From positions 3,381,001 through 3,445,000 of the forward strand of contig NZ_CP041637.1 in NCBI RefSeq assembly GCF_007197735.1: 64,000 nucleotides of DNA. The letters run 5' to 3'. Position numbers and translations under genes: made by a program. Every line of letters starts with the position of its first letter. Positions within the stretch are counted from its first letter, which is position 1. Shown here piece by piece: positions 6,149 through 39,496 of this stretch. Under the pieces are notes generated by a model. The model did no database searches and was not told the DNA's origin. It saw nothing but the letters and a program-made list of their open reading frames with translations. The stretch is from Formosa sediminum. Lineage in GTDB: Bacteria; Bacteroidota; Bacteroidia; Flavobacteriales; Flavobacteriaceae.

Positions 6149-6162
6149 TGTTCTCGAGCACA
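6149..6162. promoter_or_regulatory. LacI-type operator, beta-helix gene promoter
   Basis: TGTTCTCGAGCACA, with one mismatch to the perfect palindrome TGTGCTCGAGCACA found twice elsewhere in the window. It lies 30 bp upstream of the start codon at 6118. Confidence 0.8.
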
Positions 6163-6226
6163 TTTTTGAAAAAAAAATTAAATATTCATTCTTAATCCAT
6201 AAAAAGAGCTTTTAAGTCTAAAAAAA

Positions 6227-7108
6227 TTACAATAAACAATGTTGTTTTAGCCAATTAATACAATCTGTTTCCCAGTATAAATTAGTCTCCTTATTCCTTA
6301 AGCCAAAACCATGACCTCCTTTTTCAAATAGATGTAATTCTGCAGGAATATTATTTTTCTTTAAAGCCAAATAATATTTAATACTATTTTCGACTGGTAC
6401 AGATAAATCATCTGATGCATGAACTATAAAAGATTTTATACTATTTGAATTAATATGCATTTCACTTGAAAAAAAATCAACAGATTCTTTTAAAGGTAAT
6501 TCACCTAATAATCTAGTTCTAGTCCCTTTATGTGTAATGGTGTTCTCCATTGATATTACTGGATATATTAAGATTAAAAAATCAGGTTTAGCACTCGTTT
6601 TAGTTGATTTATATACTATATCTTTATAATGCGTAACTAAGGTTGATGCTAAATGTCCTCCTGCAGAAAAACCTAATACTCCAATTTTATTTGTATTTAA
6701 TTTATAATCCTGAGCATGTTCTCTAACATATCTTACACTTTCTTGTGCATCTTGTAATGGTCCTAAAGATTTATTCTCCATAATAACATCAGATGGTAAC
6801 CTATATTTTAAAACAAATGCTGTAATACCTATACTACTTAACCACTTTCCTACTTTTTCACCTTCTTCATACATTGAAATACGTTTATAACCACCACCTG
6901 GAAAAATAATTATAGCTGTACCATTACCTTTTTTATCTTTAGGTCTATAGACACTTAAAGTTGGAATTGAAACCTTAGAAGTACTTACTAATAATTTATT
7001 TTTATAAATTGGTTCTTCTTTATATTCAACATTTAAAATAGCATTAGGTATTGATGTTTCCCATAGTAGAACAATTTCAGGCTGTTGGCTATCAAGACAT
7101 TTATTCAT
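6227..7108 (-). CDS. Alpha/beta hydrolase, acetylxylan-esterase-like carbohydrate esterase
   Basis: A 293-residue alpha/beta hydrolase of the BD-FAE/acetylxylan-esterase type. The oxyanion-hole motif is FPGGGY (69-74), the nucleophile elbow GFSAGG has Ser148, and the likely acid and base are Asp in HASDDLSVP and His in GGHGFGL near the C-terminus. It probably removes acetyl groups from glycan fragments. No signal peptide is visible. An in-frame stop lies five codons upstream of the chosen ATG with no other start between, so the protein appears cytoplasmic, unlike many PUL esterases. It sits between the nagB-PIG-L terminator and the beta-helix gene. No operator was found in its 85-bp upstream gap, so it may depend on read-through or a weak promoter. 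Confidence 0.82.
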   Translation of the reverse strand: MNKCLDSQQPEIVLLWETSIPNAILNVEYKEEPIYKNKLLVSTSKVSIPTLSVYRPKDKKGNGTAIIIFPGGGYKRISMYEEGEKVGKWLSSIGITAFVLKYRLPSDVIMENKSLGPLQDAQESVRYVREHAQDYKLNTNKIGVLGFSAGGHLASTLVTHYKDIVYKSTKTSAKPDFLILIYPVISMENTITHKGTRTRLLGELPLKESVDFFSSEMHINSNSIKSFIVHASDDLSVPVENSIKYYLALKKNNIPAELHLFEKGGHGFGLRNKETNLYWETDCINWLKQHCLL

Positions 7109-7151
7109 AACAAGCCATATTTTTTATAAATTTTAAACTTTTAGATGCGTT

Positions 7152-7184
7152 TAAAAAAAGGGTACATAAATAGTTTAAGTACCC
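7152..7184 (-). terminator. Rho-independent terminator of the amino-sugar salvage operon
   Basis: GGGTAC at 7160-7165 pairs with GTACCC at 7179-7184, and the stem extends inward through TAAA/TTTA. On the minus strand it is followed by a T-run (complement of 7152-7159). It starts 10 bp after the stop of the NagB-PIG-L gene and closes the five-gene operon that begins at 13479. Confidence 0.85.
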
Positions 7185-7193
7185 TAATAATCT

Positions 7194-9122
7194 CTAAAAA
7201 TGCCATCTCACAAAGGCTTCCATAGCTGCGTAATGTGCTAAACCTAATTGATGATAAATCTCTGCAGTTTCTCGGTTTCTATCTTCTGCACGTTGCCAGA
7301 ATTCTCTGCTGTCTGACCCCTGAAACACCACACCATCCTTTTGCGATTGATGCTTAAATATTCCATGGCGCTTTTCTAACACTTGGTCTGGACTCATAGG
7401 TACTGCCATCTCTATCTCATCTACATTCCACTCTTGCCATGCCCCTCGGTATAACCAAACCCAACAGTCTTTCATATACTTTTTTGGTTTTAGGGCTTTT
7501 ACGGCTGTAAATATGGCGTCTAAACACACTTTATGGGTCCCATGTGGATCGGCTAAATCGCCCGCTGCATAAATTTGATGTGGCTTTATCTTATCGATTA
7601 AAGCCATCGTTATCTCTATATCGTCCTCGCCTAAAGGTTTCTTTTCTATGGCTCCTGTTTCATAGAATGGCATTTCCATAAAATGGATGTGAGCATCTGG
7701 TAAGCCTATAAATTTTGCTGCGGCATGCGCTTCTCCTTTTCGTATTAATCCTTTTATATAGCGTACTTCCGGAATGTCTATCTCACTCCCTTTTTTATTC
7801 TCTAAAAACGCTATGGCTTTTTTATAAATGTTTTCTGCTTCTGTACTTTCTATGCCAAATTTAGCATTGTAATCGCATACAAAACCTGCAAATCGTAAGG
7901 CTTCATCGTCCGATACTGCTATGTTTCCTGAGGTTTGATACCCAATATGCACCTCGTGGCCTTGTTCTTGTAATCGTTTAAAGGTCCCTCCCATACTGAT
8001 TACATCGTCATCTGGATGTGGACTAAATATTAGTACCCGTTTCTTAGCTGGCTCTGCGCGTTCGGGGCGTTTAGAATCATCGGCATTAGGTTTTCCTCCA
8101 GGCCATCCGGTTATGGTGTTTTGCAACCTGTTAAAAATCTTGATGTTTATATCGTAGGCTGGTCCAGAATCGGCTAATAAATCGCTCATTCCGTTTTCTA
8201 TATAATCGGCATCGGTTAACATTAAAATCGGTTTCTTTAAATGTAATGCTAAACCTAATACAGCCTTTCTTACTAACTTATCCGTCCATTCTATTTTTTC
8301 TACCAACCAAGGTGTGTTTACTCGTGTTAGTTTGGAAGACGATTCTTTGTCTAATACAAAGGTTACATTATCGTGCTCTTGTAAAAAAGAAGCTGGTACC
8401 AAGTTAGTTACTTGACCTTCTACAGATTGTTTTATAATGTTAGATTTCCCTTCGCCCCAAGCCATTAATATGACGCGTTGGGCTTCCATAATCTTTTTAA
8501 CACCTAATGTAATGGCTGTTCTTGGGGTGTTGTTTAATCCTAAAAAATCGCTGCTGGCTGCAACTCTGGTAATGTGGTCTAAGGCGACTAATCGCGTTTT
8601 TGAGTTTTGTAGTGATCCCGATTCGTTAAAACCAATATGGCCGTTTCCTCCAATTCCCAATATTTGTAAATCTATTCCGCCTAAAGCTTCTATTTTTGAC
8701 TCGTAAGCATCGCAATAATCTGCAATCTCTTCTTTGTCTAATGTTCCATCTGGAATGTGACAGTTTTCTGGTAAAATATCGACATGATTAAACAGTAACT
8801 CGTTCATAAATCGTACATAACTGTTTACAGAGTCTGGCTCCATAGGATAGTATTCATCCAAGTTAAAAGAAATTACATTCTTAAAACTTAAGCCTTCTTC
8901 TTTGTGTAAACGTACCAATTCTGCATATAAGCCTTTGGGTGAAGAGCCTGTGGCTAATCCTAATATACAAGGCTGTTTCTGTGAGGCTTTTACTTGGATT
9001 AATTCGGCGATTTCCTTAGCTACAGCTTTAGACCCAGAAATTGAATCTTCATAAACAACTGTCCCGATGTTCTCGAAGCGCTTTTCAAATCCTGTCGCTT
9101 TGTCTATACTACTTTTTAGCAT
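7194..9122 (-). CDS. nagB: Glucosamine-6-phosphate deaminase fused to a PIG-L/LmbE deacetylase-like domain
   Basis: A 642-residue two-domain protein, far longer than stand-alone NagB (about 240-270 residues). Residues about 20-280 are NagB, with LGLATGSSPKGLY, the FNLDEYYP motif and the catalytic loop GIGGNGHIGFNESG. It isomerises and deaminates GlcN-6-P to fructose-6-phosphate and ammonia. After a linker, residues about 360-590 form a PIG-L/LmbE domain opening with RVLIFSPHPDDD. The zinc motif is H369-P-D-D-D373, and a later AAGDLADPHGTH segment supplies another expected ligand. PIG-L enzymes remove N-acetyl groups from GlcNAc conjugates, so the fusion may couple deacetylation to deamination; that is inference. 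It is the last gene of the operon and a strong terminator follows. No separate nagA is in the window. Confidence 0.9.
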   Translation of the reverse strand: MLKSSIDKATGFEKRFENIGTVVYEDSISGSKAVAKEIAELIQVKASQKQPCILGLATGSSPKGLYAELVRLHKEEGLSFKNVISFNLDEYYPMEPDSVNSYVRFMNELLFNHVDILPENCHIPDGTLDKEEIADYCDAYESKIEALGGIDLQILGIGGNGHIGFNESGSLQNSKTRLVALDHITRVAASSDFLGLNNTPRTAITLGVKKIMEAQRVILMAWGEGKSNIIKQSVEGQVTNLVPASFLQEHDNVTFVLDKESSSKLTRVNTPWLVEKIEWTDKLVRKAVLGLALHLKKPILMLTDADYIENGMSDLLADSGPAYDINIKIFNRLQNTITGWPGGKPNADDSKRPERAEPAKKRVLIFSPHPDDDVISMGGTFKRLQEQGHEVHIGYQTSGNIAVSDDEALRFAGFVCDYNAKFGIESTEAENIYKKAIAFLENKKGSEIDIPEVRYIKGLIRKGEAHAAAKFIGLPDAHIHFMEMPFYETGAIEKKPLGEDDIEITMALIDKIKPHQIYAAGDLADPHGTHKVCLDAIFTAVKALKPKKYMKDCWVWLYRGAWQEWNVDEIEMAVPMSPDQVLEKRHGIFKHQSQKDGVVFQGSDSREFWQRAEDRNRETAEIYHQLGLAHYAAMEAFVRWHF

Positions 9123-9142
9123 AATCTTTTATTTTTTGTGTT

Positions 9143-10111
9143 TTATTTAATTTTTCCTAGAATACGATCTAACACCCAGCTTGTATGCATAGCTGTTAAA
9201 CCTGTTGAGGGATGTGTAATGGTTGTATTTAAATGCTTATACATATTTTGAACATGATGTAACTGTATGTGTTCTGGATGAGCAATACTTAATGTTTCTT
9301 GTTTAGAGGCTGTTTCTATTTCTATTGGGGCCTCATTAAATACCGAAAAACTAATCTTTCCTTGGGTTCCGTATATCTGAACGCGATCTTCTCGCTTTTC
9401 CGATCCAAAATTCCAACTCCCTGTTCCTGTAACTCCTGTTTTATGTAACCAATTCCCGGTAACAGCATCCATAGCCGTATATAAGCCTTGCTGATTAACA
9501 GCAATACCATGGGCTGCTGTGATATCTCCTAATAAATGAATAAATAAATCTATCCCATGAGAGGCTAAATCATCAAAATAACCGCCATAGGCTATTTTTG
9601 AATCGGTACGCCAATTATAATCTCCAGATTTATCTATACTATTGGCTGGCTTACTAAAATGCCAATGTATGTGTCTAACTAATCCTATTCGGTGTTCCGA
9701 CAACCAAGTTTTAACCTGTTCAAACCTTGGTAATGAACGTCTGTAATATGCTACAAACAAGGGAATATCTTTGGTTTTAAAAGCATTATAGATACTAACG
9801 CAATCTTCAAAACTTGGTGCCATAGGCTTTTCTATACAACATATCTTACCGGCTTGGGCCACTTTTAAGGCGTATTCTGTATGAGAATCTGGTGGGGTTG
9901 CAATATAAATAGCATCGAGTTCTGGATCGTTAATTAAAGCCTCAGCATCATCATAAAATTTAGGTACACCGTGCCTCTTTGCATAGTCTGCTGCTTTATC
10001 CAAATCTCTACGCATAACAGCTTTTAAAGCAAAGCCGTCAACCTTTTTATAGGCTGGTCCACTTTTTAGTTCTGTGACGTTTCCGCATCCTAATATTCCC
10101 CAATTATACAT
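9143..10111 (-). CDS. Gfo/Idh/MocA family sugar oxidoreductase
   Basis: A cytoplasmic NAD(P)-dependent oxidoreductase of 322 residues when started at the ATG at 10111 (MYNWGILGCGNV). The longer reading frame, from 10183, would overlap the upstream permease gene by 59 bp and place a non-family extension before the Rossmann motif, so the shorter start is preferred. It leaves a 13-bp gap to the permease. Visible features are the Rossmann GCGNV, the EKP motif in CCIEKPMAPS and the C-terminal GFO_IDH_MocA barrel with GGYFDDLASHGIDL. It lies between the sugar permease and NagB-PIG-L, so it probably oxidises or epimerises an amino sugar or sugar acid. The substrate is unknown. Confidence 0.85.
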   Translation of the reverse strand: MYNWGILGCGNVTELKSGPAYKKVDGFALKAVMRRDLDKAADYAKRHGVPKFYDDAEALINDPELDAIYIATPPDSHTEYALKVAQAGKICCIEKPMAPSFEDCVSIYNAFKTKDIPLFVAYYRRSLPRFEQVKTWLSEHRIGLVRHIHWHFSKPANSIDKSGDYNWRTDSKIAYGGYFDDLASHGIDLFIHLLGDITAAHGIAVNQQGLYTAMDAVTGNWLHKTGVTGTGSWNFGSEKREDRVQIYGTQGKISFSVFNEAPIEIETASKQETLSIAHPEHIQLHHVQNMYKHLNTTITHPSTGLTAMHTSWVLDRILGKIK

Positions 10112-10124
10112 GATCTCTATATGT

Positions 10125-11459
10125 TTATCGTCTCCAACTTTTAAACTTATGTCCCCATATTGCAAAAAATAAGATGAATGCATAACAGGGGATTAAAATC
10201 CAATAACTACTGGTGGCGGCTTGTGCGATTGCCTCTGACTCTGATAAGCCTTCTGATAGTAATGATACGTTATTCAGATCAACCAGTTTTCCATATAATG
10301 GCGGAATCACTGCGCCTCCTGAAATAGCCATAACCAATAAGGCTGATGCCGTTTTTGTAAACTTCCCTAAGCCATCTAAGGTTAGAGGCCAAACGGCGGG
10401 CCAAACCAAGGCATTTGAAATACCTAAGGCTGCCACAAATAGTACTGAGGTTAGTCCTGAGGTTAATATAATGCAACAGCTAAATACGATTCCTAAAATG
10501 GCACTTATAACTAATGCCTTATGCTGCTTTAAATATTTTGGAATTAAAACAACGCCTAAACCATAGGTTAATACCATAGCCAAGAGTGTGAAGGTAGTGA
10601 AGAATTTCGCTTCCTCTGAAGAAAACCCTAGTGAAATCCCATAAGATATTATTGTATCTCCTGCAATAACTTCTGCGCCTACATAAAAAAACAAGGTTAG
10701 TACTCCTAACCATAGATGTGGATACTGAAATACACTCGTTTTTGCTGCCGTTGTTGCAGAAGTTTCTTCTGGTGTTTCTGGCTCTTCTAAATTTGGAAGC
10801 GGTGCTTTTCGTATTAAAAACCCTAAAACCAATAACACAATAGCCATGACTATATATGGAGTAACAACACTATCGGCCATAGTATTTAATAATGTTTCTT
10901 TTTCTGCTTCCGAGACGAATGCCAGTTTATCTTTTACGCCATCTATACCAGATAATAACAAGGCACCAAAAATTAAAGAGCCTAATGCGCCTGCCACTTT
11001 ATTGGCGATTCCCATTATGGCTATACGCTTGGCTGCACTTTCTATAGGTCCTAAAATAGTAATGTAAGGATTAGAAGCCGTTTGTAAGAGTGTCATCCCT
11101 AAACCTTGTATAAAAATACCTGTTAAAAACACCCAATAGGTACGGGCTTCGGCTGCGGGTATAAAGATTAAAGCTCCAAAAGCCATAACAAATAACCCTA
11201 ATGACATCCCCTTTTTATACCCTACTTTATTTATTATATAGGAAGCTGGAAGTGCCATAACTACAAATGAAATATATGAGGCTGATGCCACTAAATAAGA
11301 TTGCGCATCGGTGAGCTCGTTTATCGTTTTCATAAATGGAATTAAGGCGCCATTAATCCAGGTTACAAAACCAAAAATGAAAAATAAGCCCGCAATTATA
11401 GCTATGGCGATATGATTGGTTTGGGGTTTTGGTGCAATTGCTTCTGTTTTGTTTTGCAT
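10125..11459 (-). CDS. MFS sugar permease, FucP/NagP-like
   Basis: A 444-residue major facilitator with about 12 hydrophobic segments, of the FHS (fucose/glucose-galactose/NagP) type. Family cues are the first-helix motif FFIFGFVTWINGALIPF, the loop sequence INKVGYKKGMSLG and the TLLQTASNPYITILGP segment. It probably brings N-acetylhexosamine or a related monosaccharide across the inner membrane. It lies 30 bp downstream of the kinase gene and upstream of the oxidoreductase and NagB-PIG-L genes, an arrangement that supports amino-sugar uptake. Specificity among GlcNAc, GalNAc, fucose and glucose cannot be read from sequence. Confidence 0.88.
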   Translation of the reverse strand: MQNKTEAIAPKPQTNHIAIAIIAGLFFIFGFVTWINGALIPFMKTINELTDAQSYLVASASYISFVVMALPASYIINKVGYKKGMSLGLFVMAFGALIFIPAAEARTYWVFLTGIFIQGLGMTLLQTASNPYITILGPIESAAKRIAIMGIANKVAGALGSLIFGALLLSGIDGVKDKLAFVSEAEKETLLNTMADSVVTPYIVMAIVLLVLGFLIRKAPLPNLEEPETPEETSATTAAKTSVFQYPHLWLGVLTLFFYVGAEVIAGDTIISYGISLGFSSEEAKFFTTFTLLAMVLTYGLGVVLIPKYLKQHKALVISAILGIVFSCCIILTSGLTSVLFVAALGISNALVWPAVWPLTLDGLGKFTKTASALLVMAISGGAVIPPLYGKLVDLNNVSLLSEGLSESEAIAQAATSSYWILIPCYAFILFFAIWGHKFKSWRR

Positions 11460-11489
11460 AGGTTTATTGGTGTTAGTATGTGGGAATTA

Positions 11490-12569
11490 TTATTGTAAGC
11501 ATAATTCTAAATGCATTTGCTCGTCAAAACTTTCTATAAGCTTAAATTGATTTTTTGCACGGTCTAAATTGTGATTAGGATATTTAGTTTTATAATAAAT
11601 ATCATTATTTAGATAATCTGTTAAAAAACGCAATGCCATTATAAAAATCATAGTCTTAGCTCCTAATGGTAAATACTTAGATTCTGTTGGAGTCAATGCA
11701 TTATTAATGGTTTCTAAAAATCCTTTTTTATAAGCTTCATAATATGTTTTGTTAAATGAAACTAAATTCAAATCTTTTTCATCTTCTGCAGCTGTATTAC
11801 AAATCGTCCTAATCGCATCTCCAAAATCATAATGGATTATCCCTGGCATTACCGTATCTGTATCAATAACACATAATCCTTTATTTTCCTTGTCAAATAA
11901 TGCATTAGAGATTTTTGTATCATTATGAGTAACACGTAATCTAATAGCGCCTGAAGTTTTTAAATTCTGAAGAATATGCATTTCATCCTTCATCATTTCA
12001 ACTTTATTAATACAATCTTCAGCAATAGCTTTACGCTCATTAGTAGCTAAATTTAAAGCTTCTTTAAATTGTTTATATCTAAAGGACATATCATGAAAAT
12101 TAGGTATAACTTCTATTAATTGCTGAGTATCAAAATCTCCTGTTAAGTTCAAAAATTCTCCAAACAATTTTCCACCTTCATAAGCAACAACTTCGCTTTC
12201 CACCACATTGTGTGTGAAACTGTTAGCTATAAAAATCGATAAATTCCAATAATTTCCTTTCTCATCTATATAATACGACACTCCACTTGATGTAGGAATA
12301 AAGGTTAAAACCCTTCTATGAAGATCTGATTTATTTAGATTTTGAAACTTAGATTTTAAATGATTGCTAATTGCAACCTTATTAGATATTAATCCTGGTA
12401 CATCTTTAAAAACTTCATGATTTATACGTTGTAAAACAAAAGCTTTATCTGTATGTGTTGTTATAAGATAGGAATCGTTGATATGGCCTGACACTAATTC
12501 TTTAGAAGAACGATAGTTTGAAAGATGCTCAAATTGATTAAATATATTTTCTATTTTATTTTTATTCAT
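11490..12569 (-). CDS. Aminoglycoside-phosphotransferase-fold sugar kinase, NahK/AmgK-like
   Basis: A 359-residue APH-fold kinase. The Brenner motif is HNDTKISN with H215, D217 and N222, and the metal-binding Asp is in VIDTDT (236-238), the pattern of N-acetylhexosamine 1-kinase (NahK) and AmgK. Homologues are often mislabelled mucin desulfatase. It would phosphorylate GalNAc or GlcNAc at the anomeric carbon. The start overlaps the upstream nucleotidyltransferase gene by 8 bp, so the two are translationally coupled, as expected for a kinase and a sugar-1-phosphate nucleotidyltransferase acting in sequence. Choline or homoserine kinase activity is a less likely alternative given the sugar context. 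Confidence 0.82.
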   Translation of the reverse strand: MNKNKIENIFNQFEHLSNYRSSKELVSGHINDSYLITTHTDKAFVLQRINHEVFKDVPGLISNKVAISNHLKSKFQNLNKSDLHRRVLTFIPTSSGVSYYIDEKGNYWNLSIFIANSFTHNVVESEVVAYEGGKLFGEFLNLTGDFDTQQLIEVIPNFHDMSFRYKQFKEALNLATNERKAIAEDCINKVEMMKDEMHILQNLKTSGAIRLRVTHNDTKISNALFDKENKGLCVIDTDTVMPGIIHYDFGDAIRTICNTAAEDEKDLNLVSFNKTYYEAYKKGFLETINNALTPTESKYLPLGAKTMIFIMALRFLTDYLNNDIYYKTKYPNHNLDRAKNQFKLIESFDEQMHLELCLQ

Positions 12570-13479
12570 CAGACCAAAGATTAGATGGGTAAATATTTGC
12601 TGCTTTTAGTTTAGATATCACATCTTGAGCTATTTTTTTATCCTCCTTATAGGTTACTCCAAACCACTTAGCATCAGATTTTAAAACCTTAACAGTTGCT
12701 ATCCCTGAATTTAAAATTTCATTTACCACACTCGGAATAAAAAATTCGGCCTTTAAATTATCTTTATTTTCTTCAAGAAATGTTTCAAATAATTGTGTAC
12801 CAAACTCAAAACATTTAGGAGTAAACCCCCAAAAATTCATTGATACAATAGTTTCTCCTGCGATAGGTATCATGTTACCGTCATCGTCTTTTCTAATAAT
12901 ACCAGAAGATGTATTTTCTATATGTAATCGTTCTGTAACATCTGTTAAAAAACCTTCAGAATTAACTTGACATTCTCCTCTTGAGACATAACCATTATCG
13001 GAAATCGTATTTTTTAGCAAATAAGCCATTGTACAAAAATTATAAGACTCTTTATCTGTTTCTTTTAAAGCTTTTGCCATAGTTAGAAAAGCTTCTCTAC
13101 CATAAAAATCGTCTGCATTAATAATTGCGAAATTTTCTTTCACCACATCTTTAGCCATTAGTAATGCATGTCCTGTACCCCAAGGTTTTTTTCGTTTTGG
13201 ATTAATATAAGCTTCAGGCACATTTTCTAATTCTTGAAACACATAATCTACTTCAGCTTTACCAGCCAATTTTTTATTAAATACTTCTCTAAATTCATCT
13301 TCAATATTTTTTCTAATAATAAACACAAATTTACCAAAGCCTGCTTGTAAAGCATCATATATGGAAAAGTCCATAATTGTATCTCCTTCTGGAGAGAATG
13401 TATCTAATTGTTTTAATCCACCATAACGGCTTCCTATTCCTGCGGCTAAAATCACTAATGTTGGTGTGTTCGAATTCAT
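12562..13479 (-). CDS. Sugar-1-phosphate nucleotidyltransferase
   Basis: A GT-A-fold nucleotidyltransferase of 305 residues. The nucleotide-binding signature AAGIGSRYGGLKQ is at residues 12-24, a variant in which GGLKQ replaces the usual P-K pair. The metal-binding Asp pair is in IINADDFYG, and EFFIPS and WFGVTY segments follow. It would join sugar-1-phosphate and an NTP to make a nucleotide sugar. It is the first gene of the salvage operon (nucleotidyltransferase, kinase, permease, oxidoreductase, NagB-PIG-L) and is divergent from the LacI gene. The two operators at 13591-13625 can serve both directions. Base (UTP or other) and sugar are unknown. MurU and UDP-sugar pyrophosphorylases are the closest functional analogues I can suggest. 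Confidence 0.85.
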   Translation of the reverse strand: MNSNTPTLVILAAGIGSRYGGLKQLDTFSPEGDTIMDFSIYDALQAGFGKFVFIIRKNIEDEFREVFNKKLAGKAEVDYVFQELENVPEAYINPKRKKPWGTGHALLMAKDVVKENFAIINADDFYGREAFLTMAKALKETDKESYNFCTMAYLLKNTISDNGYVSRGECQVNSEGFLTDVTERLHIENTSSGIIRKDDDGNMIPIAGETIVSMNFWGFTPKCFEFGTQLFETFLEENKDNLKAEFFIPSVVNEILNSGIATVKVLKSDAKWFGVTYKEDKKIAQDVISKLKAANIYPSNLWSDE

Positions 13480-13540: not shown

Positions 13541-13551
13541 AAGCTAAGTTA
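13541..13551 (-). promoter_or_regulatory. Possible -7 region of the amino-sugar salvage operon
   Basis: Read on the minus strand this is TAACTTAGCTT, resembling TAnnTTTG. Its upstream edge is 40 bp from the operator at 13591, exactly the distance between the TAAATTGTACC boxes and the nearer operators at the susC2 and epimerase promoters. The spacing is the main support. Confidence 0.4.
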
Positions 13552-13590: not shown

Positions 13591-13604
13591 TGTGCTCGAG
13601 CACA
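13591..13604. promoter_or_regulatory. LacI-type operator O1, divergent lacI/salvage promoter
   Basis: TGTGCTCGAGCACA, a perfect 14-bp palindrome with the central CG typical of LacI-family operators. It sits 111 bp upstream of the nucleotidyltransferase start and 66 bp upstream of the LacI start, between the divergent genes. Confidence 0.88.
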
Positions 13605-13611: not shown

Positions 13612-13625
13612 TGTGCACGAACACA
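13612..13625. promoter_or_regulatory. LacI-type operator O2, divergent lacI/salvage promoter
   Basis: TGTGCACGAACACA, a degenerate copy of the same palindrome. Its centre is 21 bp from that of O1 (two helical turns), so both could be bound on one DNA face. Confidence 0.8.
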
Positions 13626-13657: not shown

Positions 13658-13665
13658 TATATTTG
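13658..13665 (+). promoter_or_regulatory. Probable -7 box of the LacI-family gene
   Basis: TATATTTG is an exact match to the Bacteroidota -7 consensus TAnnTTTG. It ends 5 bp before the chosen ATG at 13671, so transcription could start at or very near the start codon, giving a leaderless or near-leaderless mRNA. Confidence 0.5.
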
Positions 13666-13670
13666 TACTA

Positions 13671-16828: not shown

Positions 16829-16844
16829 AGTTTATACTTTTTAA

Positions 16845-16875
16845 AAGGAGGAACTTTATTTATAAGCTCCTCCTT
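16845..16875 (-). terminator. Hairpin between the GH20 gene and kduI
   Basis: AAGGAGGA (16845-16852) and TCCTCCTT (16868-16875) form an 8-bp stem. On the minus strand it is followed by TTAAAAAG with only a short T-stretch, then the kduI ATG 17 bp later. It may be a weak terminator or attenuator, or it may affect kduI translation. Confidence 0.5.
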
Positions 16876-16930
16876 ACTTACTAACAAACAAACAAACAAA
16901 AAAAAAACTCTTTATATTTTAAATCTTCTA

Positions 16931-18813: not shown

Positions 18814-18868
18814 AACCACCTAACTTATATTGTTTAGATTATTATAATATTAATATATTCTGAAAGGT

Positions 18869-27104: not shown

Positions 27105-27156
27105 AATTATCTAATAGTGTAAAATATTAATGTTGTTTATAATACTTATTTTAGTA

Positions 27157-28602: not shown

Positions 28603-28645
28603 TTTTAATATTTTATAATATATTTATAAATTAAGGTTGATCGCT

Positions 28646-30589: not shown

Positions 30590-30615
30590 AATTTTATTTT
30601 TAAATACATCCTTTA

Positions 30616-31695: not shown

Positions 31696-31697
31696 TT

Positions 31698-33083
31698 TTA
31701 AATAAGATCTGTAATTGTTTTTATAATTCTATTAGCTAGATCATTGGCATTTTTTAGAGATGTACTCTCTGCATATATTCTTATTATGGGTTCTGTGTTA
31801 GATTTACGCATATGCACCCATTCTTTATTTTCAAAATTTATTTTAATCCCATCAATAAGTTCTAGCGACTCGTTTGCATAAAGTTCTTGTATTTCTTCCA
31901 AAATAATATCCAGATCTACATTTTGAGGCAGTTCAATTTTTTCTTTTGCTATAAAATAATTAGGATACGTTTGTTTTAACTCTTTACAAGATTTGTTTGT
32001 TACGGCCAATTGGGATAAAAATAAGGCTACTCCCACTAAAGCATCTCTTCCGTAGTGAGACTCTGGATAAATAATACCACCATTCCCTTCTCCACCAATA
32101 ATTGCATTTACTGCTTTCATCTTTTCTACAACATTAACTTCTCCAACTGCACTAGCAAAATATTTACCATTATGTAGTTTAGTAATGTCATTTAAAGCTC
32201 TAGATGATGATAAATTTGAAACGGTATTCCCTTTTTCCTTACTTAAAATATAATCTGCACACGCCACCAAAGTATATTCTTCCCCAAACATAGTACCGTC
32301 TTCATTTACTAATGCTAAACGATCTACATCAGGATCTACAACAATACCAAGATCTGCTTGTTCTTTTATCACTAAATCTGAAATATCTTTTAAATGTTCT
32401 TTTAGTGGTTCCGGATTATGCGGAAATTTTCCATTTGGTGTACAATATAATTTAACACACTCTACATCTAATTTTTCTAATAATTTAGGAATAGCTATCC
32501 CTCCGGTAGAATTTACGGCATCTACAACTACTTTAAATTTTCTTTTCTTAATAGAGTCTATAGCTACATGTTTTAAAGCTAAAACCTCATTAATATGGTC
32601 TTCTATACTATTTTTATAAACTTCGTAGGTACCTAATTCGTCTACAGGAGCAAATATAAAATCGTCATGTTCTGCAATGTTTATAATATCCTCTCCTGCT
32701 TTAGCATTTAAAAATTCTCCTTTAAAATTTAATAACTTTAACGCATTCCATTGTTTGGGATTGTGACTAGCCGTTACTATAATACCACCATGTGCTTGTA
32801 GTTTTGTTACCATTAATTCTACAGTAGGCGTTGTAGATAATTCTAAATCTATTACATTTATACCTAAACCATTAAGTGTATTGGAAATTAAACTACTTAT
32901 CATAGCTCCTGACATACGAGCATCTCTTCCTATTACAACACGCAATGGGTTTTGGTTTGATTCTTTTTTTAACCATGTACCGTAAGCTGCAGCAAATTTT
33001 ACTGCGTCAATAGGGGTTAAATTTTCTCCTGTTTTACCGCCTATAGTCCCTCGTATACCTGAAATAGATTTTATTAGTGTCAT
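31698..33083 (-). CDS. glmM: Phosphoglucosamine mutase / phosphohexose mutase
   Basis: A 461-residue alpha-D-phosphohexomutase. The phosphoserine loop TASHNPKQ has Ser106, the Mg-binding loop is VVDPDVDRLALV, the sugar-specificity loop is GEGNGG and the phosphate-binding loop RKSNTEPIIRIYAE. It interconverts amino-sugar 1- and 6-phosphates. It may be the housekeeping GlmM or a PUL copy. Its place between the epimerase and FMN-like genes, downstream of two LacI operators, favours a catabolic role linking HexNAc-1-P or GlcN-1-P to the 6-phosphate used by NagB. Phosphomannomutase activity cannot be excluded. Confidence 0.87.
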   Translation of the reverse strand: MTLIKSISGIRGTIGGKTGENLTPIDAVKFAAAYGTWLKKESNQNPLRVVIGRDARMSGAMISSLISNTLNGLGINVIDLELSTTPTVELMVTKLQAHGGIIVTASHNPKQWNALKLLNFKGEFLNAKAGEDIINIAEHDDFIFAPVDELGTYEVYKNSIEDHINEVLALKHVAIDSIKKRKFKVVVDAVNSTGGIAIPKLLEKLDVECVKLYCTPNGKFPHNPEPLKEHLKDISDLVIKEQADLGIVVDPDVDRLALVNEDGTMFGEEYTLVACADYILSKEKGNTVSNLSSSRALNDITKLHNGKYFASAVGEVNVVEKMKAVNAIIGGEGNGGIIYPESHYGRDALVGVALFLSQLAVTNKSCKELKQTYPNYFIAKEKIELPQNVDLDIILEEIQELYANESLELIDGIKINFENKEWVHMRKSNTEPIIRIYAESTSLKNANDLANRIIKTITDLI

Positions 33084-33118
33084 TATGTAATTTTATTTAT
33101 ATTTAATTTATTTAGTAT

Positions 33119-34048
33119 TTAGACTTTTAAACTCAATTCTTTCTCATAAAACGCTATTGTTTCACTTAAACCAGCTTCAATAGACCATTTTGGTTTAAAA
33201 CCTAAATCGTTAAACTTTTTTGGATTTGCCATAGAATGCTTTATATCTCCTGATCTAGTATCTAAATATTTAATTTTGGATTTAGAATTGGTTATTTTAA
33301 TGATATGTTCGGCCAATTCTTTAACCGACGTACTTTGACCAAGAGCAACATTATAAACACCTTTACCTTGTTGAGAAGCAAATAAATTAGCAGATACAAC
33401 ATCTTTTACATAAATAAAATCTCGCGTTTGCTCCCCATCCCCATAAATTAATAATGGTTTGTTTTGTAATGCATTAATAATAAATATAGGCACTACTGCT
33501 GCATATGCAGATTTAGGATTTTGTCTTGGCCCAAACACATTAAAATATCTTAGAGAAGTTGTTGGCACATTAAACTCGTTTCTGTACATGTCTAAATAAT
33601 ATTCTCCGTCTAATTTTGTTATTGAATAAGGTGTTAAAGGCTCTGGTGTCATTGTCTCAACTTTAGGAGACACAGGATTATTTCCATAATTTGCAGCAGA
33701 TGAAGATAACACTACTTTACAGCCCTCTGTTTGTCGTGCTGCATCTAAAATATTTATAGTCCCTATAGTATTAATTGATATGCATTCGTTTATTTTTAAA
33801 AGAGATTCAGGAACACTTACTAAAGCAGCTAAGTTAAAAACCGCATTAGCACCTTTAACATATGTCATAACTTGTTCTGAATTTCTTATATCAACATTTT
33901 GATAAGACACATTAAAGTCTTCAATATTTTTTTTAAAACCTGTTCTGAGATTATCTAAAACCACTACTTCGTGACCTTCATTAGACAGATGTTCTACAAT
34001 GTGACTACCAATAAAACCGGCTCCTCCAGTTACAACATATTTTTTCAT
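33119..34048 (-). CDS. NAD-dependent nucleotide-sugar epimerase (UDP-Glc/UDP-GlcNAc 4-epimerase type)
   Basis: An extended SDR of 309 residues. The Rossmann motif is TGGAGFIGSH (7-16), the Ser segment VLSSSAANYG (113-122), the catalytic pair Y141/K145 in PYSITKLDGEYY, and the NVFGPRQNP segment is characteristic of UDP-GlcNAc/GalNAc C4-epimerases of WbpP/GNE type. It probably interconverts UDP-GalNAc and UDP-GlcNAc, which would connect GalNAc from the polymer to GlcNAc metabolism. It is the first gene of a run of six same-strand genes reaching the PL8 gene, and its promoter holds paired LacI operators. A biosynthetic role in surface glycans is the main alternative. Confidence 0.87.
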   Translation of the reverse strand: MKKYVVTGGAGFIGSHIVEHLSNEGHEVVVLDNLRTGFKKNIEDFNVSYQNVDIRNSEQVMTYVKGANAVFNLAALVSVPESLLKINECISINTIGTINILDAARQTEGCKVVLSSSAANYGNNPVSPKVETMTPEPLTPYSITKLDGEYYLDMYRNEFNVPTTSLRYFNVFGPRQNPKSAYAAVVPIFIINALQNKPLLIYGDGEQTRDFIYVKDVVSANLFASQQGKGVYNVALGQSTSVKELAEHIIKITNSKSKIKYLDTRSGDIKHSMANPKKFNDLGFKPKWSIEAGLSETIAFYEKELSLKV

Positions 34049-34254: not shown

Positions 34255-34268
34255 TGGTACAATTTATA
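34255..34268 (-). promoter_or_regulatory. Shared promoter box, epimerase operon
   Basis: TGGTACAATTTATA on the plus strand, read as TATAAATTGTACCA on the minus strand. The identical 14-mer occurs at 39399-39412, and both start exactly 51 bp below the start of the nearer operator. It resembles the Bacteroidota -7 element (TAnnTTTG with one T fewer). Confidence 0.65.
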
Positions 34269-34305: not shown

Positions 34306-34319
34306 TGTGCTCGAACACA
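34306..34319. promoter_or_regulatory. LacI-type operator, proximal, epimerase operon
   Basis: TGTGCTCGAACACA, with one mismatch from the perfect palindrome. It is 257 bp upstream of the epimerase ATG and 37 bp upstream of the shared promoter box. Confidence 0.82.
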
Positions 34320-34338: not shown

Positions 34339-34352
34339 TGTGTTCGTGCACA
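34339..34352. promoter_or_regulatory. LacI-type operator, distal, epimerase operon
   Basis: TGTGTTCGTGCACA. Its centre is 33 bp (about three helical turns) from that of the proximal operator, the same spacing as in the susC2 promoter. Confidence 0.78.
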
Positions 34353-34574: not shown

Positions 34575-36116
34575 TTAATCTCCTAATCCTGGAGAAATAT
34601 CAATTTCGCTTTGAGGAATTGGTGAAAAATAAAACTCTTCTCCTCCACTTGTTATTGGAACGGTATTGTTTTTTATATCAACAGTTTCTACAGGAGACCT
34701 ATTTGCCAGTGCTTCTGAAAGTGTTTCTGTTCTAACTAAATCAAACATCCTTAAATATTCACCTGCAAATTCCCATTTTCTTTCTAAGAAAGCAAGTTCT
34801 GTTAGTGTACCATCTTCACTTGTGAGTTCTGTAGTTGCACCAGCCCGGTTTCTAACGCGATTTAAAGCAGCCCATGCGGCTGGATCATTCCCGCCTGATC
34901 TTCCCGTTGCTTCTGCATAATTTAGTAAGACTTCTGCATAACGCATAAAATATATATTATAATCTGAGATTGTACTTTTTGAACCGTCTTCAGACAAATC
35001 TCCTCCTACAACTTTTCTAAATAAAGGATGAGGATCAGACCAAGTGGCCCATTCTGATCCTACTGGATAAGAAGGAGCTCTATCTATAGCTTCTAACACA
35101 TAAGTATCATTAAACCTGTTTTCTGTTCCGTTTTTTATAGCATCTTCTTGCATATCTTCAAAAAATGCAATCTCACTGAATATCTCAGTCCATCCACCAG
35201 CTTCAGAAGGCATACCTAACATTCCCATAGTTCTGTTTCTTACCCCACAACTTGTACAACTTACTAAAGTAAACACACTTTCATTTTGATTGAACCGATT
35301 GGCTTCTGTCCATAATTCTCTAAAATTACTATGTAATCCAAAACCATAAGTCCCTTCATTATCAATCACTTCTTTTGCTTTTTCAGCTGCTAAAGCGTAT
35401 TTGCTTTCATCTTTAATAGGATAACCTCCCCACATTAAATATAATCTAGCTAAAAAAGCCTTTGCAGTACCATTACTTGGTCTTGAACCAACCACTGCTA
35501 CATCTGGGTAAACATCTGGAAGTAATGCTTCTGCATAAAGTAAATCTGATTCAATCTGTGAATAAATATCTAAAAAAGTAGCTTTTGGCAAATCTTCATT
35601 AGAATTTGATACCAATTGAATTGGGATTCTACCATACGTTTTAGTTAAGTGCATGTATGAAAAAGCTCTCATAAAATAAGCTTCTCCAATTAATCTATCG
35701 ACTTTAGATTGATCTGTACTAATTATATTATCTTGGGCGTCTAAAGCTATGTTTGCTAAAGTTATCACATCATAGCAAGTGTTATAAGCCATTTCTATAT
35801 TTTCGGTATTAGAAGTTTGTCTTCTCCAATCCGATTCTCTATAAGCAATTTTATTACTTGCACTATGTGTGGTTAAATCATCCCCACCAAAAGCTGCTAA
35901 TTGAAATTGAGCCCATTGTGCGCCCCCTTCCATAAGTTCTCTATACATACCAGTTACAACAGCTTCCAAAGCATCATCTGATGTAAGTGTAGATTCTCCT
36001 AACTGAACCTCTGAAGGATCTTCTTCAAGATTAGAGCAAGACACAATAGTGCATGCAGAAAGCACTATTACACTTAAATTAATCCATAAATTTATTTTAA
36101 AAATATTTCGTATCAT
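34575..36116 (-). CDS. SusD/RagB-type glycan-binding lipoprotein (pair 2)
   Basis: A 513-residue SusD family lipoprotein. The signal peptide ends in CTIVSC (Cys27). SusD-like signatures are LIGEAYFMRAFSYMHLTKTYGRIPI in the TPR half, and YFMRYAEVLLNYAEATGR with ERKWEFAGEYLRMFDLVRTE in the RagB half. It ends in the expected FYFSPIPQSEIDISPGLGD. A CxxC (Cys in VSCTSCGVRNR, near 280) is not a general SusD feature. It follows susC2 by 17 bp and is closed by a strong terminator. It would bind a different form or chain length of the PUL substrate than pair 1. Confidence 0.94.
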   Translation of the reverse strand: MIRNIFKINLWINLSVIVLSACTIVSCSNLEEDPSEVQLGESTLTSDDALEAVVTGMYRELMEGGAQWAQFQLAAFGGDDLTTHSASNKIAYRESDWRRQTSNTENIEMAYNTCYDVITLANIALDAQDNIISTDQSKVDRLIGEAYFMRAFSYMHLTKTYGRIPIQLVSNSNEDLPKATFLDIYSQIESDLLYAEALLPDVYPDVAVVGSRPSNGTAKAFLARLYLMWGGYPIKDESKYALAAEKAKEVIDNEGTYGFGLHSNFRELWTEANRFNQNESVFTLVSCTSCGVRNRTMGMLGMPSEAGGWTEIFSEIAFFEDMQEDAIKNGTENRFNDTYVLEAIDRAPSYPVGSEWATWSDPHPLFRKVVGGDLSEDGSKSTISDYNIYFMRYAEVLLNYAEATGRSGGNDPAAWAALNRVRNRAGATTELTSEDGTLTELAFLERKWEFAGEYLRMFDLVRTETLSEALANRSPVETVDIKNNTVPITSGGEEFYFSPIPQSEIDISPGLGD

Positions 36117-36133
36117 CTTTATATTTTTTTTAA

Positions 36134-39046
36134 TTAAAACCCTATGTTAACTCCAAATGTTACAGTTCTAGGATTAGGTATAGCTCCTGAATCGTAAGAT
36201 GGCGTAACGTCTGAAGTTTCAACACCGCCAGAAGATACTTCAGGATCATACCCTTTATAATCTGTAATCGTTAATAAATTTTGTCCGCTTAAATACAATT
36301 TCACCGAATCAGCAAAACCTTTAATATCTGAAATAGTATAACCTAGAGATAAATTACTTAATCTAACAAAACTACCGTTTTCAATATTTCTTGTAGAATT
36401 TATAATGTTTGTCCCTGAAGTTGGACTATCTGGATCTAGTACTTCTGCACTTGTTGGGACTGTAATTGTACCTGTGGCTAATCGTATAGTTCCTAATGTA
36501 GAGTTAAGTATATCATACCCATGTACTCCTCTTGTTAAAATATTTAAGTCCCAATTTTTATAGGTTAAAGTATTATTCCATCCCCAAGAAAAATCGGGAG
36601 TTCCATTACCTATAATACCAATTTCATCTCCATACTGCGCAGCACCATTTTCATCTGCTCCTAAATATTCGTACCCATAAAAATTACCAATAGATTCACC
36701 TACCTTTAATAAAAAATAATTTTCGGTACCGGAAACACCTGAAGGTGCAGAGGTTACAATTTGGTCTGAACCTCCTAGATCTACTACTTCGTTTTTAATA
36801 TAGGACATCGTAAGGTCTGAATCCCATCTTAAATCTTTATTATCAATAACAATTGCATTAAATGTTAGATCTACACCAGAGTTTTTAACTTCGCCTATAT
36901 TTGTTAATATAGTACCTCCTCCATTAGATGCTAAAACAGGTTTTTCTAACAATAAATCTTCAGTATTTTTAAGAAACCAATCCAAACTTAAATTTAGTCT
37001 GCCTTTCATCATACTAAAATCTAAACCAACATTTATCTGTTTAGTGGTTTCCCAAGTAAGATCTTCATCAACCAGACCACCAAATCCCAAACCAATATCT
37101 AATGAAGAGCCATCGAACGGAAAGTTATTACCGGTTTCTAATTCTTGATAGGTTGAATAAGGTGCCACATTTTGATTTCCTGTTTCGCCATAACCTGCTC
37201 TTAAATTAAGCTTAGAAAAAAAAGAATCATCAGGTAAAAATAAATCTCCATAGTTATATGCTGCAGATACAGAAGGGAAATAACCTGTTCTGTTTCCTTC
37301 TTGAAAGATTGAAGACACATCTATACGCATAGTACCTGTAACATATAAGTTTCTTCCAAAATTAGCTTCTGCTCTTGCTACATATGAATCCATTGAACTA
37401 GTTTCATAATCTGCATTAACCAACTGACTTTCTGCTAATTCCGAAAAATAAAAAGCATCGTCTAATCCTGTAAAAATATATTGTGAAGCAACATAACCTG
37501 CTGTTTTAACGCTAGAAGATTGTAATTCATATATTCCTGTTAGTTTTAAACTTGAATTTTCGAAATCTTTATCCCAAGTTAAAATATTACTAACTTGATA
37601 AGTTTCTGAACTTGTAGATCCAAAGGTAGAATTTGGAGGTAAAATTGTAGTCCCATCAGGTATCTCATTATAAACTTGACTATTAATTGTACTTTGAGTT
37701 GTCCCTGCTAAAACTGTAAAATTTAAATCTTCTGAGAAGTTGTAGGACAAATTTAAATTTGTATTAAAACTCTTTGTAACATCATTTCCATCCCTTTCTT
37801 TCTGAACAGCAATTGGATTAAGCATAATGGAGCCATAATCTGAAGTTAAATTATAAGTACCGTCTTCATTGATGTAATTTACCGCAGGATTCCAACCTAA
37901 AACGGCTTGTACACCACCTCTTGGATCTTGAGAGCCACGAGAGCCACCTTCAATTAAATTATGAGAATCTTCTTTAGCACCATATATGTTAAGACCTACA
38001 GTAAATTTATCTGTTAAATCTGCTGTTAAATTACTACGTAAGGCATAACGCTTATAATTAGTATTAATAATAATACCTTCTTGATCTACCAAATTTCCTG
38101 ATAAATAATAACTTAGACGACCTTCTTTACCACTTGCTGTTAACTGTAAATTATTAGTCATTGCTGTTTGATAATATTCATCCTGATAATCTGCCCCTCC
38201 ATTAACAATAGAAGACTGAGCCCCAGCTAATTCTACAAATTGTGAAGCATTTAGCAAATTATATGTTTTAGGCACAACTGATGATGACATGAAATAGTTA
38301 AGATTAACCTGAGGTTCTCCTGACTTTCCTTTTTTGGTTGTTACCATAATAACACCATTAGAACCTCTAGAACCATAAATAGCTGCAGCTGAAGCATCTT
38401 TTAACACACTCATACTTTCTATATCACTACTATTTAATGTAGAAAGATCACCGCCAATAATACCATCTATTACAACTAAAGGTTGATTATTTCCAGTTAT
38501 AGAGTTTGAACCTCTAATTCTTATTTTTATATCTCCTCCTGGTGCTCCAGAATTTTTGGAAACATTTACACCAGCAGAACGAGATTGCAGAGCATCCTCT
38601 GCCCTTACAATTGGCTGATTTTCAAAATCCTTAGAGCTAACATTTGAAATAGAACCTGTAAGATCACTTTTCTTTTGTGTTCCATATCCTACAACTAACA
38701 CTTCCTCTAACGTATTATCGCCTTGAAGGGTTATATTAATTGTTGATTCTGTCCCAACAGGTACTTCTTGAGTTTGGTAACCAACAAAACTAACTACTAA
38801 AGTCGCACCTTCACTTACTTCTATAGTAAAAGCGCCGTCAAAATCTGTTATTACACCATTAGACGTTCCCTTTTCGGAAACACTAGCACCTGGTAATAGA
38901 CTTCCTTCAAAATCAGAAACGACTCCGGTAACCGCTTTTAATTGCGCAAACATTATTTGGGACCCTAGTCCTGTAAAAAGGAGAACACAAAATAGTATGA
39001 TTCTTTTTTTGGGTTTAAATTTAATTTTTAAAAAGTGTTTTTTCAT
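36134..39046 (-). CDS. SusC/RagA-type TonB-dependent transporter (pair 2)
   Basis: A 970-residue SusC family channel. It starts with a basic stretch and signal peptide (IILFCVLLFTGLGSQIMFAQ), then a CarboxypepD_reg domain (VTGVVSDFEGSLLPGASV ... DFDGAF ... VSFVGYQTQ), the segment EVLVVGYGTQKKSDLTGS, the plug with VLKDASAAAIYGSRGSNGVIMVTTKKG, and a barrel ending in TFGVNIGF. It is the outer-membrane importer for the second SusCD pair. Two LacI operators and the shared promoter box lie 350-450 bp upstream, so its mRNA probably has a leader of more than 300 nt, long for a susC gene. Confidence 0.94.
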   Translation of the reverse strand: MKKHFLKIKFKPKKRIILFCVLLFTGLGSQIMFAQLKAVTGVVSDFEGSLLPGASVSEKGTSNGVITDFDGAFTIEVSEGATLVVSFVGYQTQEVPVGTESTINITLQGDNTLEEVLVVGYGTQKKSDLTGSISNVSSKDFENQPIVRAEDALQSRSAGVNVSKNSGAPGGDIKIRIRGSNSITGNNQPLVVIDGIIGGDLSTLNSSDIESMSVLKDASAAAIYGSRGSNGVIMVTTKKGKSGEPQVNLNYFMSSSVVPKTYNLLNASQFVELAGAQSSIVNGGADYQDEYYQTAMTNNLQLTASGKEGRLSYYLSGNLVDQEGIIINTNYKRYALRSNLTADLTDKFTVGLNIYGAKEDSHNLIEGGSRGSQDPRGGVQAVLGWNPAVNYINEDGTYNLTSDYGSIMLNPIAVQKERDGNDVTKSFNTNLNLSYNFSEDLNFTVLAGTTQSTINSQVYNEIPDGTTILPPNSTFGSTSSETYQVSNILTWDKDFENSSLKLTGIYELQSSSVKTAGYVASQYIFTGLDDAFYFSELAESQLVNADYETSSMDSYVARAEANFGRNLYVTGTMRIDVSSIFQEGNRTGYFPSVSAAYNYGDLFLPDDSFFSKLNLRAGYGETGNQNVAPYSTYQELETGNNFPFDGSSLDIGLGFGGLVDEDLTWETTKQINVGLDFSMMKGRLNLSLDWFLKNTEDLLLEKPVLASNGGGTILTNIGEVKNSGVDLTFNAIVIDNKDLRWDSDLTMSYIKNEVVDLGGSDQIVTSAPSGVSGTENYFLLKVGESIGNFYGYEYLGADENGAAQYGDEIGIIGNGTPDFSWGWNNTLTYKNWDLNILTRGVHGYDILNSTLGTIRLATGTITVPTSAEVLDPDSPTSGTNIINSTRNIENGSFVRLSNLSLGYTISDIKGFADSVKLYLSGQNLLTITDYKGYDPEVSSGGVETSDVTPSYDSGAIPNPRTVTFGVNIGF

Positions 39047-39398
39047 TTCTATTATATTAATTGAAAATAATTTATATTAATTATGGACAATACTTTAGAG
39101 TTAATTTTTACAAAAGTCTAGATTAACTAAAGTCAAACTTCACTTAAAGTATTAGAGAATTATTTTATTACCATATACTTTACTTATGATTTAAATTTGT
39201 GTGTTATTAAATAGTATTTTAACGTTATATTAAATTTTAGAATTGTTCAAAATATTTCAATTTAAACTATTAGCATCATTTATTAAATCACTCATTTAAT
39301 ATTTTAAAGCCCAAAAACCAATATTGTTTCAAAACACTAAATACCAGGCTTTTATATTAAAATAAAATTCGTTCTCACACGTAATACTTTCTAAAACC

Positions 39399-39412
39399 TG
39401 GTACAATTTATA
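39399..39412 (-). promoter_or_regulatory. Shared promoter box, susC2
   Basis: TGGTACAATTTATA on the plus strand, identical to 34255-34268 and at the same 51-bp offset from the proximal operator. On the minus strand it reads TATAAATTGTACCA, like a Bacteroidota -7 element. Confidence 0.65.
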
Positions 39413-39449
39413 CAATAAATAATTTAAAAAAAAAATTAAACAGAAAAAA

Positions 39450-39463
39450 TGTGCTCGTACACA
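39450..39463. promoter_or_regulatory. LacI-type operator, proximal, susC2
   Basis: TGTGCTCGTACACA, with two changes from the perfect palindrome. It is 403 bp upstream of the susC2 ATG and 37 bp upstream of the shared promoter box. Confidence 0.82.
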
Positions 39464-39482
39464 TAAACTTTAACACTTAACA

Positions 39483-39496
39483 TGTGTTCGTACACA
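39483..39496. promoter_or_regulatory. LacI-type operator, distal, susC2
   Basis: TGTGTTCGTACACA, with its centre 33 bp from that of the proximal site, the same as in the epimerase promoter. The flanking bases CA and TG extend the palindrome. Confidence 0.8.

Follow-up and report, generated by a model that had tools for sequence, protein, structure and literature searches.

The 64-kb stretch of the Formosa sediminum genome analyzed here (the window: positions 3381001–3445000 of 3,934,786 bases) contains a polysaccharide utilization locus (PUL), apparently of the chondroitin/hyaluronan type, which spans window positions 3803–41569 and in which a gene for a LacI-family regulator lies among genes for SusC/D proteins, carbohydrate-active enzymes, and amino-sugar salvage (table 1). 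A first-pass annotation of the window had described eight near-identical 14-bp palindromes at five promoter regions of this PUL and had regarded them as the operators of a self-contained LacI regulon. Here, we follow these sites through the whole genome and through the relatives of the host, whose family was taken as the Flavobacteriaceae from the window's named relatives, and suggest that the regulator probably acts at its main promoters by activation from a fixed upstream position.

Table 1. Regulator, Operators, Predicted Promoter Elements, and Genes of the PUL (Window Coordinates; Operon Limits Are Predictions)
Feature	Coordinates	Strand	Remarks
LacI-family regulator	13671..14714	+	LacI helix-turn-helix (HTH) and Peripla_BP_4 sensor domain
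Operator TGTTCTCGAGCACA	6149..6162	-	25.0 bits; 30 bp before start codon of beta-helix/DUF4955 gene of type IX secretion system (T9SS) type
Operator TGTGCTCGAGCACA, perfect palindrome	13591..13604	.	28.1 bits; proximal to salvage operon
Operator TGTGCACGAACACA	13612..13625	.	21.0 bits; 21 bp from partner 13591
Operator TGTGCTCGAGCACA, perfect palindrome	23973..23986	-	28.1 bits; susC1 operon
Operator TGTGCTCGAACACA	34306..34319	-	26.6 bits; proximal to epimerase-to-PL8 operon
Operator TGTGTTCGTGCACA	34339..34352	-	21.0 bits; distal partner of 34306, 33 bp away
Operator TGTGCTCGTACACA	39450..39463	-	21.0 bits; proximal to susC2-susD2
Operator TGTGTTCGTACACA	39483..39496	-	19.4 bits; distal partner of 39450, 33 bp away
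Predicted -7 box TAACTTAG, salvage operon	13544..13551	-	53 nt from first base of proximal operator; box and spacing same in Formosa algae
Predicted -7 box TAAATTGT (TAnnTTGY type), epimerase operon	34259..34266	-	53 nt from first base of proximal operator; missed by strict -7 pattern
Predicted -7 box TAAATTGT, susC2	39403..39410	-	53 nt from first base of proximal operator
Predicted -7 box TAAATTTG, susC1	23955..23962	-	24 nt from first base of operator, which would overlap the promoter
Predicted -7 box TATATTTG, lacI	13658..13665	+	5 nt before ATG
T9SS-secreted beta-helix protein with DUF4955	3803..6118	-	Pfam PF16315, PF18962, PF12708
Salvage operon	6227..13479	-	Operon from strand and spacing; genes from Pfam, NCBIfam, PDB sequences
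Genes of salvage operon			Nucleotidyltransferase (12562), NahK-like kinase (11490), major facilitator superfamily (MFS) transporter (10125), Gfo/Idh (9143), NagB-PIG-L fusion (7194), esterase (6227)
susC1-susD1-GH20-kduI-DUF4861	14799..23874	-	Probably one operon; Pfam; KduI above NCBIfam cut-off
Epimerase-PGM/GlmM-30616 protein-FAD oxidoreductase-GH109-like-PL8	24039..34048	-	Probably one operon; Pfam
susC2-susD2	34575..39046	-	Pfam
GH88-CBM9 operon	39657..41569	-	Part of PUL without operator; Pfam; GH88 structure-sequence matches

Operators in the Window and in the Genome

All eight of the annotated 14-mers are present where the annotation placed them. Scored with a matrix derived from 357 sites of relatives (chosen in advance for at most two mismatches to TGTGYTCGARCACA and not thinned for relatedness), they reach 19.4–28.1 bits, against 8.2 bits for the next-best 14-mer of the window. 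A scan of the window that admitted up to three mismatches gave nine matches (shuffled sequences: mean 0.70, maximum 4); the ninth, at 26473, was rejected as an operator on account of its position within the PL8 gene and its score of 5.9 bits. Perfect palindromes are just those at 13591 and 23973, so that the description of the eight as palindromes applies strictly to these two. The five promoter regions comprise six promoters, lacI and the salvage operon being divergent, and all eight operators are intergenic provided that lacI begins at its conserved start (13671) and not at the mechanical start of the open reading frame (ORF; 13551).

The exact sequence TGTGYWCGWRCACA occurs seven times in the genome, each time within the PUL. 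There are three sites with a single mismatch to it, namely the PUL site at 6149 and two sites (632506 and 1609289) which, together with 2480663 and 2454488, were rejected as members of the regulon since they lie inside ORFs. Every one of the 71 conceivable 14-mers that score 19.3 bits or more is covered by the search patterns used for the genome, and 49 sites (39 from the loose pattern TGTNNNCGNNNACA and 10 from the list of a specific pattern) were scored with the matrix. The loose form is not enriched, with 39 occurrences against 79 for its backwards control; the specific form is. Nine sites reach 19.3 bits: the eight operators and a site at 2671493 (L040:2994-3007) that reads TGTTATCGAGCACA, scores 19.5 bits, and lies between a GH65 and a GH13 (SusG-like) gene. 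As 0.42 sites of this score are expected by chance in the genome, the ninth is within expectation. The claim that no site lies outside the PUL is thus correct for all but this one, and a search of the genome for the motif at unrelated genes leaves the regulon standing.

The Regulator and Its Association with the Motif

The product of lacI has the composition of a LacI/GalR protein: an HTH domain (PF00356, 55.4 bits; cut-off 27), a hinge, and a sensor domain resembling the periplasmic binding proteins (PF13407, 102.6 bits; cut-off 35.1). In an alignment of 20 orthologs, the sequence SKGTVDRV of the HTH is invariant and the hinge PNxxAxxL is conserved. The alignments were drawn from 19 of the 29 ortholog loci fetched (47 matches) and from 35 of 80 named loci plus the window protein. 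Palindromes with a central CG are the operator form of the LacI family, and, as the first-pass annotation had recognized, such a palindrome adjoins the regulator's own gene.

Among 298 Flavobacteriaceae genomes, this LacI (E <= 1e-60) is found in 45 and TGTGYTCGARCACA in 45, with both in 42 (Fisher 7e-44, uncorrected for relatedness); the motif read backwards is found in five. The exceptions are three in each direction. LacI occurs without the exact motif in G006, where the site reads TGTGTTCGTACACA, and in G249 and G255, whose best matches to the regulator are 39% and 37% identical; the exact motif occurs without LacI in G020, which has a distant homolog, and in G080 and G283, which have none at 1e-30. 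Of the 80 named loci, L134 was excluded because too little upstream DNA was available; among the other 79, a site with at most two mismatches lies no more than 400 bp upstream of lacI in 72, and the control with reversed letters gives 0. The seven loci without an upstream site are L112, L119, L125, L127, L128, L156, and L174, and the first five of these have sites downstream of lacI. Similarly, 29 other orthologs have a site at most 500 bp upstream of lacI (23 loci), directly downstream of it (5), or farther off (L037). In Formosa algae, the nearest named relative (LacI 84% identical), the operator pair of lacI and its 21-bp spacing are retained and the letters of one operator are altered; such tandem arrangements are general in the relatives, where 92 of 96 close pairs are 20–23 bp apart.

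The pairing of motif and regulator amounts to a strong phylogenetic footprint, from which binding of the protein to these sites may be inferred. The genome-wide scan and the conservation in relatives together give strong support to the existence of a LacI-type regulator whose own predicted operators lie at almost all promoters of the PUL.

A Fixed Distance between Operator and Promoter

The position of the operator relative to the promoter was examined at 205 catabolic promoters, defined by a proximal site 20–420 nt from the start codon, with repeats identical around the operator removed; these proximal-only counts supersede a histogram over all operators that had mixed proximal and distal sites. 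Distances to a -7 box (TA..TT[TCA]G) were counted from the first base of the proximal operator. In 125 of these promoters, the box lies at 52–54 nt (shuffled, 50–56 nt: mean 3.8, maximum 8), and a relaxed definition of the box raises the count to 151 (other three-base windows: mean 5.0, maximum 19). After reduction to less than 60% identity, which leaves 83 promoters, 30 have the box at this distance, as against a mean of 1.0 and a maximum of 5 in shuffled sequences (51–55 nt) and a mean of 1.27 and a maximum of 6 in other five-base windows. A fixed upstream distance, of the kind that CcpA-like activation would involve, is hence seen in 30 of the 45 nonredundant promoters that have any -7 box. 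In the full set, it is found before genes of several types (kduD-like, 2/2; SusC, 23/40; GH109, 1/3; PGM, 1/1). The distance is most strictly kept towards the catabolic genes: the standard deviation inside the 52–54 peak is 0.6, compared with 11 for the lacI-side distances, which range over 27–65 nt.

The -7 box is placed at -12 to -5 in two flavobacterial studies (PMC9723704, PMC6847099), and the center of an operator at this spacing would consequently fall at about -58.5, upstream of the promoter. A TTG is found 19–20 nt ahead of the -7 box in 85 of the 125 promoters at the 52–54 spacing. This led us to drop the idea that a -33 box is absent from them, and PMC6847099 indicates little -33 signal in the promoters of F. 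johnsoniae anyway.

Three of the five catabolic promoters of the window have this spacing, two of them by way of a duplicated promoter: the epimerase (34049-34574) and susC2 (39047-39656) promoters are 82% identical over 115 bp, including both operators 33 bp apart, and were not retained as two independent cases. Their common box fits the TAnnTTGY motif, which PMC9723704 gives for another promoter class of F. psychrophilum; the sequence TATAAATTGTACCA occurs exactly only at 34255-34268 and 39399-39412 in the genome, and a similar box is found at the salvage promoters of L074 and L085. An alternative sigma factor could possibly recognize it. No -7 box lies 52–54 nt from the start of the 6149 operator of the beta-helix gene.

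As a separate observation, of 74 lacI promoters in which a box was detected, 47 have it ending 5 nt before the ATG, as in the window, and this would imply a leaderless or nearly leaderless lacI mRNA. Such mRNAs are rare in flavobacteria, 5.5% being the figure for F. psychrophilum (PMC9723704).

Activation, Repression, and the Alternatives

We propose that this LacI protein would be the regulator of an N-acetylhexosamine regulon of many Flavobacteriaceae, that in many cases two of its dimers would occupy adjacent operators, and that in F. sediminum the regulon would extend over nearly the whole PUL. When bound in front of the salvage, epimerase-to-PL8, and susC2-susD2 operons, the protein would be centered just upstream of RNA polymerase, near -58.5 from the predicted start of transcription, and most likely would activate once it has bound its ligand, the amino sugar or a close product of it; the presumed effector is suggested by the salvage neighbors. 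At susC1 and at the beta-helix gene, where the operator lies nearer to the -7 box or to the ATG, the protein would more likely block transcription until the sugar is present. An operator that blocks its promoter thus suits only some of the sites, and the main catabolic promoters have a fixed, upstream, activator-like operator. Taken as a whole, this combined explanation appears to us reasonably probable. For the fixed-spacing promoters, we favor activation over simple repression with moderate confidence, because the operator is held upstream and because CcpA of Bacillus subtilis, likewise of the LacI family, activates from upstream sites; according to PMC3463425, cre boxes upstream of the -35 activate, those overlapping the promoter repress, and the effect depends on the face of the helix. 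CcpA, however, is a global, HPr-dependent regulator of carbon catabolite control, whereas the system here would be a single-pathway regulon of the Bacteroidota with a TAnnTTTG promoter.

A number of observations weigh against activation and against the regulon as we draw it. The promoters themselves are predicted from the -7 consensus. No recognizable box is present in 38 of the 83 nonredundant promoters, and in 15 others it occurs only elsewhere in the 14–100 nt range. Eighteen of the 30 nonredundant hits are NTP-transferase promoters, and salvage promoters of common descent are abundant in the set. The spacing fails before PL8 (0/2) and GH20 (0/3), is seen in one of 22 CBM9 promoters, and is lacking at the beta-helix gene and susC1 of the window; the epimerase and susC2 promoters form a duplicated pair whose box escapes the strict pattern. 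The lacI-side distances fall into two groups 21 bp apart, one near 40 (20 distances) and one near 61.5 (12 distances), so that a helix-face constraint may exist there too. They were therefore abandoned as a clean negative control, and our estimate for the proposed explanation as a whole was lowered slightly. In the genome, one site of equal score (2671493) lies outside the PUL, and the GH88-CBM9 operon has no site upstream of it (best score -3.3 bits). Finally, 16 of 40 loci outside the named set showed no salvage genes in the neighborhood of lacI. The regulon is mixed in its geometry and incomplete, since the susC1 and beta-helix sites differ from the others and GH88-CBM9 has none; control of every operon by one regulator is thus not what we find, the sites being confined to five promoter regions.

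Most LacI-family proteins are repressors, and divergent autoregulation, as predicted for lacI here, is typical of repressors. The same regulon could therefore be governed by a classic repressor at all promoters, with release by an N-acetylhexosamine or a derivative and with the upstream sites explained by flexible repression or by a second, unseen promoter. At susC1 and at the CBM9 promoter of Flavobacterium, the predicted -7 box lies at 24 and 15 nt, counted as above, and the operator would overlap the promoter as expected of such a repressor; the salvage, epimerase, and susC2 operators lie upstream. The operators of repressors commonly lie across the promoter and at variable positions, yet the interval between operator and -7 box differs by no more than 1–2 bp among salvage, Flavobacterium SusC, two kduD-like, one GH109, one PGM, and T9SS-type promoters, some of which may share ancestry. 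Uniform repression seems to us a serious possibility, although one with clearly less than even prospects.

That some other protein occupies the sites and the neighboring LacI is incidental is improbable. The genome has six further LacI genes, and TGTG...CACA resembles part of a site for CRP. But the HTH sequences listed for four of the six paralogs differ from that of the present regulator, motif and regulator are found together in 42 genomes with only three exceptions each way, and the site remains beside lacI although its neighbors change; a CRP-type site was rejected on this co-occurrence and on the central CG. Least credible of all is the idea that the sites are due to chance or belong to a repeat family with no regulatory role; nothing in its favor was found, and the genome-wide counts, the co-occurrence with lacI, and the sites upstream of lacI in relatives contradict it. 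Only 0.007 sites of at least 19.3 bits would be expected per 64 kb, against the eight seen, all of them intergenic with the conserved lacI start; shuffled sequences likewise fall short of the nine matches with up to three mismatches, and a chance motif was rejected on these grounds. Nor would chance or a repeat account for F. algae, where operator letters have changed and both sites and their spacing are kept.

The Predicted Pathway under Control and Known Systems

The PL8 lyase matches chondroitin ABC lyases and the GH88 protein matches the structure sequences of unsaturated glucuronyl hydrolases. A match to NahK structures covers residues 27-351 of the 359-residue kinase, and the epimerase matches WbgU/WbpP. 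The nucleotidyltransferase was assigned by Pfam, its best PDB match bearing no name; the GlmM-type mutase and the NagB-PIG-L fusion score above their NCBIfam cut-offs, and the NagP-like MFS protein below its own. From established knowledge of these enzymes, a salvage route can be inferred in which GalNAc or GlcNAc would be converted to the 1-phosphate, the UDP-sugar, and GlcNAc-6-phosphate, followed by deacetylation and deamination to fructose-6-phosphate. Salvage of the NahK type is known from bifidobacteria, and the matches of the kinase and epimerase are in keeping with it; here, the phylum is different and the endpoint is a NagB-PIG-L fusion. Of the components that mark a glycosaminoglycan PUL of the Bacteroides type, PL8, GH88, and SusC/D proteins are present, but the 23 PUL proteins scanned include neither a sulfatase nor a hybrid two-component system (HTCS), so that the locus departs from that type. 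The lack of a sulfatase among them points to unsulfated chondroitin or hyaluronan as the substrate, or to sulfatases encoded elsewhere.

In Bacteroides, the PULs for glycosaminoglycans (GAGs) are governed by HTCS regulators that sense unsaturated disaccharides; with BT3334, the HTCS for chondroitin sulfate in Bacteroides thetaiotaomicron, a single regulator likewise serves an entire GAG PUL (PMC9067506). HTCS proteins are membrane bound and sense in the periplasm, whereas the LacI protein is probably cytoplasmic and would sense a monosaccharide or its product. Monosaccharide regulators that extend into a PUL have precedents. In the Bacteroides regulons predicted in PMC3878776, the LacI-type KdgR, UxaR, UxmR, and UxuR serve uronates and the GntR-family ManR covers the whole alpha-mannoside pathway; these monosaccharide regulators can likewise include some periplasmic or extracellular genes. 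Their sugars differ from that presumed for the present LacI, and the passages on them mention no fixed upstream geometry. New, as far as we found, are the regulator–operator pair and its spread, a GAG PUL that lacks an HTCS and would be controlled by this pair, and an activator-like geometry at a constant distance; our search of the open-access literature found no paper on this LacI regulon, which is no proof that none exists.

A defined regulator, operator, and spacing provide a testable circuit for the Flavobacteriaceae, which are important degraders of polysaccharides, and predict targets in new genomes of the family. The shared operator ties the salvage genes to PL8, SusC/D, kduI, and GH20 and offers hints of function, independent of homology, for DUF4861, DUF4955, and the trio of FAD oxidoreductase, Gfo/Idh, and 30616 proteins. 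If activation is correct, the Bacteroidota would have a family-wide LacI-type activator and a control of GAG use unlike the membrane sensors of Bacteroides.

The Regulon in Relatives

The LacI–operator pair is found again and again in the family, most commonly next to an amino-sugar salvage operon, and the regulon thus extends beyond the PUL described here. The self-contained regulon of the earlier description is therefore upheld as regards operators at almost every PUL promoter and not as regards its isolation or the uncovered GH88-CBM9 genes. A NagB-PIG-L or NTP-transferase gene lies near lacI in the fetched stretch of 67 of the 80 named loci, which are mostly from Flavobacterium, and of 24 of 40 others; in two Flavobacterium loci (L108 and L118, the latter from F. 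johnsoniae), Pfam identifies a GHMP kinase and another nucleotidyltransferase, and the operator is retained. Sites in relatives also precede SusC/D, GH20, PL8, and short-chain dehydrogenase genes, the last kduD-like by context. The GH20 gene stands alongside a sulfatase and GH123 in L097 and alongside UxaC in L088.

In L087 and L101, the site lies between the kduD-like dehydrogenase and an HTCS gene, followed by SusC/D (and PL8 in L101), which indicates that the two logics can coexist. A LacI in place of an HTCS, as first described, holds for the F. sediminum PUL. A bolder version of our proposal would make the protein mainly an activator, with its tandem operators locked at -58.5 from the promoters of amino-sugar and GAG genes across the Flavobacteriaceae; it would serve as the GAG master switch of the Formosa group in place of an HTCS, and in relatives its monosaccharide signal would gate the oligosaccharide sensor. 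We consider the chances of this version evenly poised.

A second group of orthologs (L067-L086 and L104), 43–47% identical, has a different neighborhood and keeps the operator. In L083, this neighborhood consists of PIG-L, a sodium symporter, SusC/D, and an ASPIC-repeat protein, so that the motif alone does not prove a role in amino-sugar use there. An unlinked site in the second-group genome of L104 precedes a GSDH-cytochrome c operon. Outside the family, LacI relatives that are 30–40% identical (L196-L203, L205, and L206) show TGTGTGCGCACACA, TGTGTTCGCACACA, or something close to them within the fetched stretch at five of ten loci, which suggests a shifted operator in these more distant proteins.

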